DNA from: Methanosarcina barkeri 3
Lineage (GTDB): Archaea > Halobacteriota > Methanosarcinia > Methanosarcinales > Methanosarcinaceae
Assembly (NCBI RefSeq): GCF_000970305.1
Contig: NZ_CP009517.1
Location: 3,224,001-3,288,000 of the forward strand
Direction of reading: 5' to 3'
DNA: 64,000 nt
Position numbers and translations under genes: made by a program. Positions 13,159-51,309 of this stretch are shown piece after piece; positions within the stretch are counted from its first letter, which is position 1, and every line of letters begins with the position of its first letter. A model generated the notes under the pieces. That model saw nothing but the letters and a program-made list of their open reading frames with translations. It made no database searches and was not told the origin of the DNA.

Positions 13159-13347
13159 TTACTTTCCAGAGAATTCCTTACTAACATCTGCAGCGTTTGT
13201 ATATTCCTTGTCTGGAAGACTCTCTAGTACTTGCATTACTTCGTTACTGGCATTGTGCTTTTTAGCGTGCTCAATAAGATCCTTCTTTTTTACAGGATAA
13301 TTTATGTCCTTTAGAGCTTTTTGGACTTCAATTGGACTGGTCTGCAT
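13159..13347 (-). CDS. DUF2795 protein, paralogue 3 (diverged)
   Basis: A 62-residue member lacking the basic tail (ends DVSKEFSGK), with a KALKDINYPVKKKDLIEHA core. It is closer to the frameshifted copy at 12348-12535 than to paralogues 1 and 2, so the cluster has two subtypes. GGGGG (13355-13359, complement) precedes ATG. Confidence 0.8.
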   Translation of the reverse strand: MQTSPIEVQKALKDINYPVKKKDLIEHAKKHNASNEVMQVLESLPDKEYTNAADVSKEFSGK

Positions 13348-24179: not shown

Positions 24180-24986
24180 TCAAAAGCTGGAACTTGAGAT
24201 GTCATCCACGCACACTGCAGACAATCGGGCTTTTTCCTTTTTTGCACATTCAATTCCGTCTTCAACAGCTTCCCTGATAATATACCCGGCTTTGTGAAGG
24301 ATAGTGTCCCCGAGTTGAGGGTCTTTGTCCATGCTGGCAGTACAGGGATAGGAGTGATGAGCACCTGAGATGGTTTCCTTATATTCGGCAGTGTCAGTCC
24401 AGCCGAGTTTTTTTGCCACAAACCAGGTAGAGCCGCATGGAGCGTCCCTGAGAACACCTGCACCAGTAAACATCTTTCCGTCAGGGCTCATTTCAATTCT
24501 GAGCACAGGCTTTCCGAAACCAAGGTCAACAAATGCATCTATAACGGGCTTTCCGGTTTTCTCAAGAGCACAAAAAGGCTTTGGACCTTCAAACTCAACT
24601 CCAATAGCTTCAAGCTCTTTTTTAAGCTGTTCAAGTATTCCGGCAGGGGTTTTCTTAGAGTCTTCAGCAGGTGCGATTACGGCTTTGGCCTTCGTTTTCT
24701 TCACAACATCCGGAAGGGCTGTAAGAAGGTCTGGGTGAATGCCAATAGCAAGTATAAGGTCGCACTCCGGAAGTTTTGGAGGCATGTACTGCTCGGGCTC
24801 TTCTATAAACGAGGGCAGGTCTTGAGGAAATTCATGAATTCCTACGATCAAGTTCGCATATGACTTTCTGGCCTGCCTGCAATGGTTGCAGAGTTCTCCG
24901 CAGGACACGCAGAAATTTCCAGGATTAATCAGGTTCTGAATAACTTTTTTACCAAGTTCGCCTGAATAGAGTACGAGGATCTTCAT
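24180..24986 (-). CDS. DUF166 family protein (COG1810)
   Basis: A 268-residue archaeal protein. The N-terminus MKILVLYSGELGKKVIQNL is Rossmann-like. CVSCGELCNHC (about 26-36) looks like a metal or Fe-S site, and further conserved elements are GIHPDLL, VIAPAED and APCGSTWFVAKKL. This matches DUF166/COG1810, whose biochemical function is unknown. Two further Cys near the C-terminus (GIECAKKEKARLSAVC) may complete a cluster. An AGGGGGTAT leader precedes ATG. Confidence 0.8.
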   Translation of the reverse strand: MKILVLYSGELGKKVIQNLINPGNFCVSCGELCNHCRQARKSYANLIVGIHEFPQDLPSFIEEPEQYMPPKLPECDLILAIGIHPDLLTALPDVVKKTKAKAVIAPAEDSKKTPAGILEQLKKELEAIGVEFEGPKPFCALEKTGKPVIDAFVDLGFGKPVLRIEMSPDGKMFTGAGVLRDAPCGSTWFVAKKLGWTDTAEYKETISGAHHSYPCTASMDKDPQLGDTILHKAGYIIREAVEDGIECAKKEKARLSAVCVDDISSSSF

Positions 24987-32127: not shown

Positions 32128-34422
32128 TCAAATGTAAGAGAGATTCTCAATCTCCTTAGATTTCCTTGTTCGGAGTTCGCCTTTTATAGCTTCGTAATAT
32201 TTCATTGTGTCCGATGTCACTGAAGGACTGGTTTCTGTTGCTGCTTTAAGGAAGTGTTTCTGCTTCACCTCTTTAGCGTGAAGGTCTTCACGTAAAGCAA
32301 GCCTTCCTGCCTTTTTACACACGGCTGCAATATCTGCACCTGTATACTGATTGGTCATAGAAACAAGCTTTTCGAGATCAACATCCTCAGAAAGTGTCAT
32401 TTTTTCAGTGTGGACCTTAAAGATCTCCATGCGAGCTCCCTCATCAGGAACCGGAACAAGGATCAGTTCATCAAAGCGCCCTGGTCGAATAAGTGCAGGG
32501 TCAATGACGTCAGGACGATTCGTTGCGCCAATTACTACTACAGCCCTAAGCTCTTCAAGCCCGTCCATTTCGGAGAGAAGCTGATTAAGGATTCTTGCCG
32601 TAACCTGTGGCTCACCTGCATAGGCTCCGCGAACGGGTGCAAGCGAGTCAAGTTCGTCAAGAAAAATAATTGAAGGAGCTACCTGCCTTGCCCGTGTAAA
32701 GACCTCAGAAATCCTTTTTTCGGATTCTCCGTACCATTTGGAAAGCAGATCACTTCCCTTGGCTGCAATAAAATTAGCATCAGATTCGTGGGCTATTGCT
32801 TTTGCAAGCAGAGTCTTTCCCGTACCCGGGGGGCCGTATAGAAGGACTCCTTTGGGAGCCTCAACCCCGATATCCCTGTAAGATTCCGGACTCTTAAGAG
32901 GCCATTCCACTACCTCTTTAAGGAGCTTTTTTAATTCTTCCAGGCCACCGATGTCGTCCCAGCTGACAGCTGGCACTTCAATCAGGATTTCCCTTATTGC
33001 TGAAGGCCGGACATCTTTGAGAGCATTTTCAAAATCCTCTCTTGTTACCTGAAGAGAGTCCAGAATTTCAACCGGAATTTCAGGTTCATTGAGATCGATT
33101 TTAGGCAAAACCCACCGTAGTGCACTCATAGCTGCCTCCCTGCACAGAGCAGCAATATCAGCTCCCACGAACCCATACGTGATTTGAGCAAAATCCATGA
33201 GATTTACGTCTTCGGCAAGAGGCATTCCCCTGGTATGGATCTGGAAAATTTCTAACCTTCCATCAGTGTCAGGGACTCTAAGTTCAATTTCTCGGTCAAA
33301 CCTGCCAGGGCGACGGAGCGCTATATCCAGGGCTTCAGGACGATTAGTTGACCCTATAACAATTACATTCTTGCGAACTTTAAGTCCGTCCATAAGGGAG
33401 AGAAGTTGAGCAACTACTCTCCTTTCGACCTCTCCTGTTACCTCAGCCCTTTTAGGGGCAATGGAGTCAATCTCATCCAGGAAGATAATTGCAGGGGCAT
33501 TCTTTTCTGCGTTCTCGAAAATTTCCCTTATAGCCCTTTCGGATTCGCCGTAATATTTGGACATAATCTCAGGGCCATTGATAGAAATAAAGTAAGCATC
33601 GGATTCATTGGCAACTGCTTTTGCAAGCATTGTTTTTCCCGTTCCGGGCGGACCATGGAGCAATACCCCTTTTGGAGCATCGATTCCTAGCCTGTCAAAA
33701 AGCTCAGGATGCTTCAAAGGCAACTCTATCATTTCCCTGACTTTCCCGATGGCTTCTTTCAGTCCACCCAGATCTTCGTACATAACAGTAGAAATATTAT
33801 GTTCAGGAGTTACTTCGATTGCTTCAGGCAAAAGCTCAACTTGAGTAAAGTCTGTAATTTTTACTATCCCAGATGGAAAAGTAGAAACTACCTGCAATTT
33901 TATTTCTCCAAGCCCGAAAGATGGCACGAAGCCCTCACCGAAAAAGTCCTGGAAGAAATCTTCGAACATAACTTCTTTGCCAAAAGTCTCCGTTTCCTTC
34001 AATTTCCTTAAACTTGTAGTGGAAATAAAATCACCCTTTGAAACCGTACGGTTCATAAATATAGCTTTAAGGGTTTCACTCGGCGCATAGATCTGCATGC
34101 CCTTAGCTACAGGTGCAAGAGTTACACTCTTTGCTTCTTTCCACTCAGCTTTACGAATATTTACATGTTCTCCGATACTGGTTTTTGCATTAGTGCGGAT
34201 AAGTCCATCCATACGTATAATCTCAAGTCCCGAATCACTTGGGTATAGGCGTCCTATGAGGGCTGAAGTCGATTTTCCCCCTCTTATTTCCACAACATCA
34301 AAGGGATTGAGGTCCAGCCTTTCCCTGAAATTTTCACCTATTCGGACAATGCCTTTTCCAACATCCCGTTGATCGGATTCTGCAACTTTTAATTTTATCG
34401 TTGTCTTTTCCGTATCCGTCAA
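32128..34422 (-). CDS. Cdc48/VAT-type AAA ATPase
   Basis: A 764-residue archaeal homologue of p97/Cdc48 that unfolds proteins, probably feeding the proteasome. The N-domain (1-205) has the double-psi barrel ([18 protein letters not shown]). D1 Walker A is GPPGTGKT (257-264) with Walker [11 protein letters not shown]2 has GPPGTGKT with IIFLDELDS. Arg-finger regions [12 protein letters not shown] and [11 protein letters not shown] are intact. Residues 136-172 are a Phe/Gly-rich insertion ([18 protein letters not shown]). It starts with TTG behind ATGGGGGTATTA. Confidence 0.93.
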
Positions 34423-36396: not shown

Positions 36397-36470
36397 TGGG
36401 CCCGCTGAGATTCGAACTCAGGATCCCCGCCGTGTAAAGGCGATGTCATGACCGACTAGACCACGAGCCC
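36397..36470 (-). tRNA. tRNA-Val (TAC)
   Basis: A complete cloverleaf: acceptor GGGCTCG/CGGGCCC with discriminator A, D arm GGTCTAGTCGGTCATGAC, anticodon loop TTTACAC with anticodon TAC, and T arm GTTCGAATC. CCA is not encoded and no intron is present. Confidence 0.95.
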
Positions 36471-36920: not shown

Positions 36921-36930
36921 ATATTTATAG
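36921..36930 (+). promoter_or_regulatory. TATA box of small-RNA candidate 1
   Basis: ATATTTATAG preceded by the purine-rich AAAAG expected of a BRE. Its centre is 26 bases before G36952, the first base of the RNA's closing stem, which is the usual archaeal distance to a transcription start. Confidence 0.65.
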
Positions 36931-36951
36931 GGGATTGACATGAAGTAACTT

Positions 36952-37022
36952 GTGAGCGGGTCTTTCTTTTATATGATAACCCCAACACCCAACACCCCAA
37001 TTCATACTCCCCAACCCGCTCA
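36952..37022 (+). ncRNA. Small-RNA candidate 1 with C-rich loop
   Basis: TGAGCGGGT (36953-36961) pairs perfectly with ACCCGCTCA (37014-37022), closing a 52-base loop. The loop carries CCCC or CCC at 36980, 36988, 36995 and 37009, separated by short A-rich spacers (AACCCCAACACCCAACACCC). A TATA box sits at the right distance upstream. There is no coding potential. It shares stem sequence, TCT after the stem and ATAACCCC with the locus at 37358. Function is inferred, not shown: C-rich single strands could bind G-rich ribosome-binding sites. Confidence 0.6.
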
Positions 37023-37325
37023 TCTTATTCTCATCAAATAGAAAAATATATTTAGGGAATCAGTTGCAAAGATCTAAATTATATATTTCTATTGTACAGA
37101 CTAGAAAAAAAATCTAGATTTCTGGCCATGAAAATAGTTCTGGAGACTCATTTAGAAAAAGTAACTTATTTAGTATAAAAAGATAAAGAAAAGTGGAGTT
37201 GAACAGGTTCGAGTCTTAACTTCACTCGATGGTATTATAGGCCTTTAATTCAGAACAAAATTTCTAGTTAGAAGAAAATAAATATAAGCTTTGAATTATA
37301 AACTATATACTATAGAAATGAAAAG

Positions 37326-37336
37326 TTATTTATAAG
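37326..37336 (+). promoter_or_regulatory. TATA box of small-RNA candidate 2
   Basis: TTATTTATAAG preceded by GAAAAG (BRE-like). Its centre is about 27 bases before G37358, the first base of the closing stem. Confidence 0.65.
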
Positions 37337-37357
37337 ATGAATAGGTATTCATGTCGA

Positions 37358-37449
37358 GTGAGCGGGTCTCTTTTCCATAGTATAACCCCCAAAACAATAT
37401 CCCCCAACTATTTCCCCCAACTATTCCCCAAACTCTCCAGCCCGCTCAC
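37358..37449 (+). ncRNA. Small-RNA candidate 2 with C-rich loop
   Basis: GTGAGCGGG (37358-37366) pairs perfectly with CCCGCTCAC (37441-37449), closing a 74-base loop. The loop contains C5 blocks at 37386, 37401 and 37414 and a C4 at 37426 (ATATCCCCCAACTATT and similar). TATCCCCC is complementary to the GGGGGATA leader of the F420 oxidoreductase and flavodoxin genes; TTTCCCCC to the GGGGGAAA leaders of DUF2795 genes. A hairpin with T tail follows at once. It is paralogous to candidate 1. Confidence 0.65.
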
Positions 37450-37470
37450 AAACTTTTCTCAGTTTGTTTT
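37448..37470 (+). terminator. Hairpin plus T run ending small-RNA candidate 2
   Basis: ACAAACT (37448-37454) and AGTTTGT (37461-37467) form a 7-bp stem with a six-base loop, followed by TTTT. It overlaps the last bases of the RNA's closing stem, so the two folds compete. Confidence 0.55.
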
Positions 37471-37672: not shown

Positions 37673-39661
37673 TTAGAAGTCGAAAAGCGTTTTTTGTGTT
37701 TTCGGCTCGACTTTTTTAGGAACCTCGCTAGTTTTAACCTCAGGTTTTTCAGATATGTCTGAAATTTTTTTAATAAAGACATCGCAGTTTACAGATTCCT
37801 TTATAGATTCCCCGGACCTGGTTAATTCAGAAGAGATGGTGTTTTCTATCGGTTCAGAGTTAGAAAAGACATCCTTCTCAAAAGATTCAGATAGGGATGA
37901 AGAATTCTCAACCTTAAGATTATCGTGTTCAGGTGAACTGGATGTAAGGCTATCAGATGTGAGCTTGATCCCGTCAATCTCTACCTGATGCTGTTTCGGC
38001 ATAAGAATATCGGAAGTAAAACCACCATCAGACGTAGAAGTATCAGGTATCAGGGAAACAGGTTTAGGAATATCGGAAGTGTTATTTTCTAAAGAAGTGT
38101 TATTTTCCAAAGAAGTGTCATTTTCCAAAGAAGTGTCATTTTCCAAAGAAATGTTATTTTCCGAAGGAGTCTCAGGTAAAATCTCAAAACCAAAAGTGAG
38201 AGTCTTCTGCCCGACCTTGGAAGTCCTGGAGTCGGGAACGTCGAGACTCTCAGAACGCTTCTCAAATTTTTCCTTAGGAGCCTTAACCGAGGAGCCAGAA
38301 CGATCTTCTTTACTATTACCTGATGATGGAGCAGGAACCCTGAAAAACTCAGTTCCATCGGGTTCTTCTTTTCCTTCAAGGAGGAGTTCCTGCGCCCTAT
38401 CATAGATTTTCTGCAACTTTTTACTGGCTTTTGTGCTTCCCGAGAGATATATCAACTCTTCAAGTTCAAGCCCGAGACCTGCAGTAATATCAATAGCAGA
38501 CTCTTCATTCTTTAACATGCGAGAGTAAAGCTCCAGCAGGATATTTCTTGAATAACGTATGGATTCGAAACTGTGTTTTCCAATTTTAGCAGCTATATTA
38601 TCCCTGAGGTCTCGCTTTGAACGTATCTGCCCCATTCTCTTCCAGAGAGAAGGCGACTGATACTTGATAAATCCGGGGTAGGGCCTTGTCTTTGAAACTG
38701 CAACTCCGCAGACCATCAACATGCTCGCGTACCTCCACATCCCATAGTTCTGGCGTTTTTTTACGCGCCCGAGGTAGAGATCAGCCCTGGAGAGATAACC
38801 AAAGCCGGTTTTGACATCCTCAAGATTTCCATCCTTGGAAGCATACTGAAGAGGTAGGTTTTCATCGATCCAGTGTACAAGGTCTTCAGGACTTTCATCA
38901 AGCCCGCGAGCAGCTTCAAGGGCTTTTTTACAGTCTGTGCTCTTAAAGATTCTCTGCATTGCCTTGAAGATGTTTTCCTTGACATCTCTGCCTGAAGTGA
39001 CGATGTCTTCAACTTCCAGCGCTTTTCTTCCGGCAGCTGCAGCCTGAAGGTCGTTGATTGCACTTCTCAGATCGCCTTCCGCACCTTCGGCGATTTGCTG
39101 GACTGCATCCAGGCTGCATAAAATTCCCTCGCTCTCACAGACCTTCTTCAAAGCAGGAACCATAGAGCGGCTCTGTACGGATCCGAATTTTATTTCCAGA
39201 CAGAGATTTCGAATAGTAGGAGTCAACTCATAAATATCGTTTGCAATCAGCACTATGGGTTGAAGCGTACTCTTTATGATTCCTGCAATAGCCCTCATCC
39301 CACCCCTATCTGAAGTGCCGTGAAGATTGTCCGCTTCATCCAGGATAATCAGGCGTTTTCCTCCAAAAAGGGTATTCATTGAAGCTGCCGATCCTGCAAC
39401 TTTTTCAATAACACCTGCAGTTCTCTGGTCACTTGCATTGAGTTCGATGACTTCCCAGCCCAGATCGCGAGCAAGAGCGTGGGCAGTAGAGGTCTTCCCT
39501 ACTCCTGCAGGCCCATGAAGGATCACTGCCCTTCTCTCTGGAATGCCTGAAAGCCACTTCTCAGCCCAGGTCCGCAAATCCTGCACCGCCTTCTTGTTCC
39601 CTACAATCTCCTTAAGGGTCTGTGGGCGGTATTTCTCAGCCCATTCAATTGCCAACGTCAT
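37673..39661 (-). CDS. rfcL: Replication factor C large subunit
   Basis: A 662-residue clamp-loader subunit that opens and loads PCNA on primed DNA. The N-terminus [17 protein letters not shown] and Walker A GPAGVGKT (50-57), Walker B LIILDEAD and an archaeal RFC-L collar domain are present. The C-terminal 200 residues are low-complexity ([10 protein letters not shown] repeats) and end in the PIP-box QKTLFDF. A second PIP-like QKTLTFGF lies before the repeats. ATG 39661 gives the family N-terminus; a TTG five codons upstream adds VWFK only. No small subunit is adjacent. Confidence 0.93.
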
Positions 39662-40309
39662 CTTAAACCATACCAATAAAAAAGGAACTCATTCTTAACT
39701 CTATACATTTTAATCTTTTAACTATTGAAAAGTTTTTGTTTTCACAATCTTCTGCTGTCGATTTTTAAATGATAATTCCAAATTTGCACTTAGATATAAT
39801 TAAAGTCTTTTTGTTCTCATAAAATAATACTTTCACTCACCAGAACAACTTTGAGCAGAAAAACTGTATTCATATGTCCTTTCGTCCTGATCACCAGTAA
39901 TTCCCTTGGTTTTAGCTCACCAGTACTTAGAATCAACCATTAGCACAAAAAACTCAATTTGACTACACTGTTTTCAGCCCTCTTGAGCGAACGAAGTGAG
40001 CGAAAAGGGCACCGCCCTCTCCCAAGACGGAACTCGGGTAATTCAGCCCTCTTGAGCGAACGAAGTGAGCGAAAAGGGCACCGTCCTCTCCCGAGACGGA
40101 ATTCGGGTAATTCAGCCCTCTTGAGCGAACGAAGTGAGCGAAAAGGGCACCGTCCTCCCGAGACGGAATTCGGGTAATTCAGCCCTCTTGAGCGAACGAA
40201 GTGAGCGAAAAGGGCACCGTCCTCCCGAGACGGAACTCGGGGGACAAAATTAATTAATGATCGTGTTTGTACTTCTTTGAACTACTTAAAATCTTACACA
40301 GCAGTCAGG
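39662..40309. other. Intergenic region with LLSERSER repeats
   Basis: Between divergent rfcL and mtxX. The right half is filled by four repeat copies (39982-40243). No gene seen. Confidence 0.5.
39982..40243. repeat. 67-69-bp tandem repeat of the LLSERSER type, array 2
   Basis: Four copies start at 39982, 40051, 40120 and 40187: CTTGAGCGAACGAAGTGAGC, then GGGCACCGTCCTCCCGAGAC and GG...TTCGGGTAATTCAGCCCT. Each folds through CCGTC/GACGG. It is the same family as 19193 and 42808 but with its own spacer. The array ends 66 bases before the mtxX start. Confidence 0.9.
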
Positions 40310-43282: not shown

Positions 43283-43750
43283 TTAACTCGGTGTTCCCTG
43301 TGGTTGTGGAGTTTTGCTTTTATGCTTTAGCTTTTCGGCAATGTCGACTCCAAGCCTTTTGCACTCCTGCAGGTCCTTATCTGTGGGTTTGTGCAGTATC
43401 CTGAGTACGGGATCTATGACAATCATTCCCATATCTCGCATTTTTTCGGCTATCAGTATAGGTGCTTCTCCGCTCCATCCGTATGACCCGAAAGCAGCTC
43501 CTAATTTTCCTTTAGGATTTGTGGAAGCTAGAGTCTCATCCATGAATTTTTCCATGGGCTGAAGCATCCTGTAGTAAAAGGTCGATGAACCGACTGCAAT
43601 TGCATCGGAGCCATTAAGATCCTCGAGTTTTACGTCATAAAAACTAATAGCTTTTGCGTCCACATGTTTCGACTCGATTCCGTTAGCTATTGCTTCTGCC
43701 ATAGCTTTCGTATTCCCCGAAGTACTGAGATAGACTACTATCGCTTTCAA
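43283..43750 (-). CDS. Flavodoxin-like FMN protein
   Basis: A 155-residue flavodoxin of the short type fused to FprA in other methanogens: the FMN phosphate loop STSGNTKAMAEAI (9-21), the SSTFYYRM loop (about 55-62) and FGSYGWSGEAP (about 87-97) are complete. It probably carries electrons in the cytoplasm. It starts with TTG behind GGATGGGGGATAAGATTG, nearly the same leader as the F420 oxidoreductase. A perfect inverted repeat lies about 80 bases upstream. Confidence 0.88.
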   Translation of the reverse strand: MKAIVVYLSTSGNTKAMAEAIANGIESKHVDAKAISFYDVKLEDLNGSDAIAVGSSTFYYRMLQPMEKFMDETLASTNPKGKLGAAFGSYGWSGEAPILIAEKMRDMGMIVIDPVLRILHKPTDKDLQECKRLGVDIAEKLKHKSKTPQPQGTPS

Positions 43751-50651: not shown

Positions 50652-51059
50652 TCAGGCAGAAGCTTCCTTGGTCAGGATATAAGCAACCATTTCAGGATTA
50701 AGTTTGCTTTCCCTTGCGACCTTTTCTTCGATTCTCTCAGCAGGTGTCCCCTCAGATTTTAACTCCCTTATTTTCTCAATGACTGAGGAAGGAATACTGT
50801 AGTATTCGTTAATGTCCTTTCTGTGACCCCATACATCGCCTTCGATAAGCTGGATTCTCTGCATCTCAAGGAACATTTCTATAGATTTTGAAACCGTACG
50901 CCTGTAAGATTTAGGCAACTGAATTACCTCAATTTTCGGGCAGGTTTCAACGAGTGCAAAAATATCCTTGTTCGAAGGCCTGAAGGCCAGATGAACAACA
51001 CGTTCATTAGGATTGAGAGTGAATATTTCCTCTCTAGAACTAACTACTCTAATTTTCAT
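50652..51059 (-). CDS. DUF1699 family protein
   Basis: A 135-residue protein of the methanogen-associated DUF1699 family: KIRVVSSREEIFTLNPNERV, AFRPSNKDIFALVETCPKIE, QLPKSYRRTVSKSIEMFLEM and EGDVWGHRKDINEYY. The function is unknown; the C-terminal 40 residues look helical. GTGGGGGAATTACATAA precedes ATG. The surrounding regulators and fae belong to methyl/one-carbon metabolism, but a link is only positional. Confidence 0.8.
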   Translation of the reverse strand: MKIRVVSSREEIFTLNPNERVVHLAFRPSNKDIFALVETCPKIEVIQLPKSYRRTVSKSIEMFLEMQRIQLIEGDVWGHRKDINEYYSIPSSVIEKIRELKSEGTPAERIEEKVARESKLNPEMVAYILTKEASA

Positions 51060-51309
51060 TTATGTAATTCCCCCACTATAAAGTTCCTATTTTTTACCTC
51101 AATATAAACTACTTATACTTATTATAAATATTTGTCTGCCCGCACTTTTATTTTTTACGCAGTTACTCAGTCTTCGATATCCTTTCCGGTCCTCATAGAG
51201 GCCGATAAAAGCCTGGAAAGAATAAGACCTATAAAAATAATCATAAATCAGAAATTTTAGTCCTCGCGAGAACATTCTCAGCAAAGAAATAAAAGAAAAA
51301 AACAAAAAC

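Follow-up and report, generated by a model that had tools for sequence, protein, structure and literature searches.

A 64,000-nucleotide stretch of the Methanosarcina barkeri 3 genome (positions 3,224,001–3,288,000 of a 4.56-Mb genome; hereafter, the window) contains two tandem intergenic loci on the plus strand, A (36952–37023) and B (37358–37449), in each of which a stem encloses a loop carrying runs of C. They raise the question of whether such inverted repeats are genes at all and, if they are, what their RNAs would do in the cell. The loci are flanked by a tRNA gene (36397–36470, minus strand) and by a gene (37673–39676, minus strand) that we take, from its sequence, to encode the large subunit of replication factor C. 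Between the latter and the gene at 40277, a 69-bp unit with GAGCGAACGAAGTGAGCGAAAAGGGC is present in four tandem copies (39973–40241). Elsewhere in the host genome, GGGGGATAAAATG occurs four times in identical form (131304, 243829, 609740 and 2434838), probably marking where a repeated gene, for example a transposase gene, begins. A sequence-only reading of the window had described A and B as paralogous small-RNA genes whose C-rich loops are complementary to G-rich ribosome-binding leaders. The stems, TATA boxes and C-blocks of both loci lie where that reading had placed them, and all its coordinates hold. The two loci are organized as follows.

36922–36929, plus strand: TATA box of gene A, TATTTATA, with AGCAAAA before it (0.95–0.96 conserved, 25 copies)
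36952–37023, plus strand: putative small-RNA gene A, predicted to start at the stem's first base
36952–36961, plus strand: gene A closing stem, 5' arm, GTGAGCGGGT
36962–36970, plus strand: gene A pyrimidine/U-tract, CTTTCTTTT
36980–37013, plus strand: gene A open-loop C-blocks (CCCC 36980–36983, CCC 36988–36990, CCCC 36995–36998, CCCC 37009–37012)
37014–37023, plus strand: gene A closing stem, 3' arm, ACCCGCTCAT
37327–37334, plus strand: TATA box of gene B, TATTTATA
37358–37449, plus strand: putative small-RNA gene B, predicted to start at the stem's first base
37358–37367, plus strand: gene B closing stem, 5' arm, GTGAGCGGGT
37368–37374, plus strand: gene B pyrimidine/U-tract, CTCTTTT
37386–37429, plus strand: gene B open-loop C-block repeats (37386–37390, 37401–37405, 37414–37418, 37426–37429), the number of units varying between species
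37440–37449, plus strand: gene B closing stem, 3' arm, GCCCGCTCAC

The centre of the TATA box precedes the first base of the stem by 26.5 nt in A and by 27.5 nt in B. The stem comprises 10 bp when the next pair is counted (U-A in A, U-G in B), and its first pair is G-U in A. Folding with ViennaRNA gave a single 10-bp closing stem for each locus, with a wholly open loop in B and one weak inner helix in the loop of A. The opposite strand of both inverted repeats is G-rich.

DNA searches among 60 relatives matched A in 26 genomes and B in 27, all belonging to Methanosarcina or to one sister genus, with E values in other species as low as 1e-63 for A and 1e-78 for B; within Methanosarcina the two loci are conserved throughout. 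Across 25 copies of A, the segment from AGCAAAA and the TATA box to the 3' arm of the stem is 0.81–0.98 conserved, compared with 0.56 upstream and 0.59–0.63 downstream; B shows a similar footprint with softer edges (0.75 upstream; 0.72 and then 0.53 downstream). Three stem pairs vary in concert: pair 1 is G-C, G-U or A-U, pair 6 is C-G or U-A, and pair 10 is U-A, U-G or C-G. In a 28-sequence alignment, 99.3% of the stem cells pair and both sides change at three pairs, against at most one in slid controls. One repeat unit of genome G049 was omitted from alignment A3, which kept the rows in register. The covariation of the stem across Methanosarcina that the sequence-only reading had proposed as a check is therefore present, compensatory changes included. 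The cross-species E values, the recurring spacing between TATA box and stem and the compensatory changes place both loci far beyond chance. The same evidence, together with the conservation of the footprint, supports two paralogous small-RNA genes with a promoter, a stem and single-stranded C-blocks, and on the strength of their conservation A and B are almost certainly real, presumably transcribed genes.

The loop of B consists of CCCCCAACTATT units, the count of which differs among genomes. In G015 (loci L015 and L060), gene B carries about nine CCCCCAAC-type units within 160 nt in total, the stem being intact. One genome also has an additional paralogue beside A and B (L147, G026:C12:36986–37063, minus strand), with its own TATA box and a different C-rich loop.

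A covariance model built from A and B matched shorter relatives in other genera. It also uncovered C (3,570,080–3,570,152 in the host genome), a third member that nearly every Methanosarcina genome carries and whose loop is almost invariant. A second model, R2, was trained on diverse members including one A-type sequence from a sister genus and excluding the A and B of the window. In the host genome it detected both A (49.8 bits, E 9e-12) and B (36.3 bits, E 2e-7) and yielded a fourth member, D (24,266–24,323, minus strand), so that this genome holds four members, A to D. A and B have the anatomy that defines the family, namely a 10-bp closing stem enclosing a U-tract and C-blocks, with a TATA box 21–30 nt before the stem.

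R2 matched 224 of the 238 genomes of the host's class, including 150 of the 151 of good quality, with 1–13 copies per matched genome; none of the six genomes of g22, a genus of small genomes in the same family, gave a match. Across 393 genomes sampled from the whole phylum, matches beyond the class were confined to five. Four of these, all from family f15, contain divergent members that are real by inspection (TTGAGCGGGT, CGTTTTTAT, CCATCCCC and ACCCGCTCA, with TATTTATT upstream), and the match in the fifth was due to chance. Among named genomes, scanning for the pattern picked out records of Methanosarcina, Methanolobus, Methanohalophilus, Methanococcoides, Methanomethylovorans, Methanosalsum, Methanothrix/Methanosaeta, Methanoperedens and ANME-2, plus a single chance match in a gammaproteobacterial record. 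The latter, together with matches in G430 and in one viral contig, was judged to be chance because the stem is missing; weaker matches in G245 correspond to a GAGAGAA-type repeat and not to family members. Against Rfam 15, only tRNAs were matched at the gathering threshold and only chance matches appeared at a relaxed one. The family is thus absent from Rfam 15 and occurs in nearly all members of the host's class of methane-cycling archaea.

The core common to the class consists of GTGAGCGGGT, U4–7, CCCCCACUCCCC and ACCCGCTCAC, and a U-tract and C-blocks are present in members from every family inspected. Among 112 distinct members, the sequence most often preceding the 3' arm is CCCCACTCCCCA. 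These members were collected with a regular expression requiring eight paired positions in the stem, a U-tract no shorter than four and C-runs, so their statistics for stem, U-tract and C-runs are conditioned. The TATA spacing is unconditioned: the centre of the box lies 21–30 nt before the stem in 79% of the members, against 24% for shuffled upstream DNA. We sought a conserved reading frame in the family members and found none. The lengths of the 112 members spread over all three frames, and the frame starting at the stem meets stops within 46 of them, which rules out small protein genes or a small protein-coding RNA.

Could these loci act as DNA, without a separate RNA? A terminator-like or mobile element, or a G-quadruplex on the opposite strand, would account for the inverted repeat with its G-rich complement and for copies that are scattered and intergenic. 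We nevertheless consider this very improbable, given that the TATA box occurs on one strand at a fixed spacing in 79% of members, that promoter and loop are conserved together and that the neighbouring genes are inconsistent. No neighbour is shared by C, D and two distant members, which argues for action in trans. A housekeeping RNA of the class, using CCCCCACUCCCC to contact a single universal partner (ribosomal RNA, tRNA or some other stable RNA), would explain an almost invariant core found in 150 of 151 good genomes, but fits poorly with a copy number of 1–13, with the divergent loops of A and B and with the lack of a match in the six g22 genomes, and seems unlikely to us.

If the RNAs act in trans on messages, the C-blocks should find G-rich partners. 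Within the loop of B, TATCCCCC (37398–37405) and TTTCCCCC (37411–37418) had been proposed to pair with the leaders of an F420 oxidoreductase, a flavodoxin and DUF2795 genes. Both the positions and the complementarity to GGGGG leaders were borne out, and minus-strand GGGGGATA/GGGGGAAA leaders were located at 43750, 16785, 13347 and 12822; the named targets were not supported as such. An enrichment of targets near start codons, which that reading would have counted in its favour, was not observed: GGGGGATA occurs at 19 sites within 12 nt of an ATG, against 20 for the reversed pattern, and such leaders were discarded as an enriched target class. The flavodoxin leader is not conserved among five relatives, being kept in two, altered in two and replaced by GGAGGAG in one. 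Of 203 sampled genes, 13 carry a G5 leader, against none of 750 internal ATGs, a contrast inflated by a choice of starts that favours G-runs. Most G5 leaders of the window show no conservation across species. A search of 31 genomes for long conserved complements of the A loop (GGGGAGTATGAATTGGGGTG) and of the conserved B element (GGGGTTATACTATGGAAAAG) gave none beyond control. The only match to the B element that recurs among close relatives falls within a coding sequence resembling aIF2-gamma, and a ranking of sampled starts by duplex energy, which returned mostly G-rich internal sites, was set aside.

Likely TTG starts with a GGGGG leader were seen on the minus strand of the window at 34422 (CDC48-type ATPase), 43750 (flavodoxin) and 16785 (the F420 oxidoreductase, as named in the earlier reading). 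Three small paralogous genes (12822, 13112 and 13347, minus strand) have GGGG(G)AAAA leaders 7 nt from the ATG; the protein starting at 13347 is a DUF2795 protein, and its leader keeps the G-run in some relatives and reads GGAGG in one.

The best candidate target of the family, judged from leader conservation, is a DUF1699 gene (PF08004; 50652–51059, minus strand).

51070–51077, minus strand: candidate target site AGTGGGGG in the DUF1699 leader (start codon at 51059)

This site is the exact complement of CCCCCACU, the core of members C and D, and is kept in all six syntenic leaders compared (the host and five other species), the match having been picked post hoc among 41 genes. In ACDS operons, the internal leader GGGGTATTCTGTG is kept in the copies read, one of them differing by one base, and could pair with the ATACCCC of member C.

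Our preferred explanation, which we hold with modest confidence, is that these are multicopy trans-acting RNAs that mask the G-rich ribosome-binding sites of chosen messages; the general idea of translational control through C-blocks, already put forward from the sequence, thus remains the best explanation even without the targets then named. Each RNA would be transcribed from its own TATA promoter, beginning at the stem's first base. The 10-bp stem would hold the 5' and 3' ends together and leave the U-tract and C-blocks exposed in single-stranded form. Through these C-blocks the RNA would pair with ribosome-binding sites of the GGGGG type and hold ribosomes off a selected set of messages; the U-tract may serve to bring in an Sm-like protein. 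The predicted anatomy, with its stem-locked ends and open tracts, fits such pairing with G-runs. The tail of 16S rRNA pairs with GGGGG only by way of a G-U pair. Since the C-blocks match GGGGG exactly, the family could separate GGGGG sites from GGAGG sites. The invariance of the core across the whole class counts against masking, because a changing set of targets would require less of it. A bolder proposal, which we regard as rather doubtful, is that stem, U-tract and CCCCCACUCCCC form an ancient universal RNP of the class and of a sister lineage that would filter GGGGG from GGAGG sites globally; we know of no such global translation filter in any domain.

The main rival to masking is that the RNAs serve mainly as a protein platform. 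The stem, U-tract and CCCCCACUCCCC core would bind an Sm-like or C-rich-binding protein, which the copies would titrate, as CsrB titrates CsrA. Stem sequence, U-tract and C-core are indeed kept far more than pairing needs, the repeat units of B expand and shrink (to about nine in one genome) like protein-binding arrays, and the 31 genomes gave no long conserved target for either loop. No candidate protein was identified, however, and outside the core A, B and C have different loops, each of them highly conserved in itself, which suggests separate partners. We see this alternative as possible but less probable.

Masking of ribosome-binding sites has its nearest known functional analogue in LhrC of Listeria monocytogenes, which is present in five copies and masks Shine-Dalgarno regions through three redundant CU-rich motifs (CUCCC...UUUU) (PMC4132741). 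A and B likewise belong to a family with multiple near-copies per genome and several single-stranded C-rich motifs in each RNA. LhrC differs in being bacterial, in its length of 111–114 nt and in its structure, which includes a terminator hairpin; its targets are proven, whereas those of the family are candidates, and Rfam matching revealed no sequence relation. Runs of C also occur in the loops of 6C RNA and of other Rfam families with C-rich loops, none of which A and B matched at gathering or relaxed threshold.

Among archaea, masking of ribosome-binding sites has been reported for the three M. mazei RNAs studied so far, sRNA162, sRNA154 and sRNA41 (PMC3510493; PMC5867862; PMC6560208), and a 2015 study of Methanolobus psychrophilus described nine conserved cold-induced sRNAs (PMC5378194). 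Like the proposed family, sRNA162 and sRNA154 are trans-acting and pair with ribosome-binding sites, but they are described (PMC3510493; PMC5867862) as having two or three stem-loops and making contact through a single-stranded linker or loop, in contrast to a single stem that closes off an open loop rich in C. For sRNA41, masking within the polycistronic ACDS messages is reported (PMC5867862; PMC6560208). It comes from the same genus, and the kept ACDS leader, GGGGTATTCTGTG or nearly so, fits the ATACCCC of member C, which in genome G007 is separated by about 24 kb from an ACDS operon. As a guess, member C could be M. mazei sRNA41; A and B are loci other than this candidate. In that case sRNA41 would belong to a family spanning the class, a view that the cited M. 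mazei sRNA papers do not state.

Archaeal regulatory RNAs are mostly known singly and in few species. The family described here, missing from Rfam, is present in 150 of the 151 good genomes of its class, which include major methane producers and the ANME-2 methane oxidizers, and four of its members sit in one genetically tractable genus. It therefore offers a defined starting point, open to experiment, for studying how translation is controlled in these archaea.
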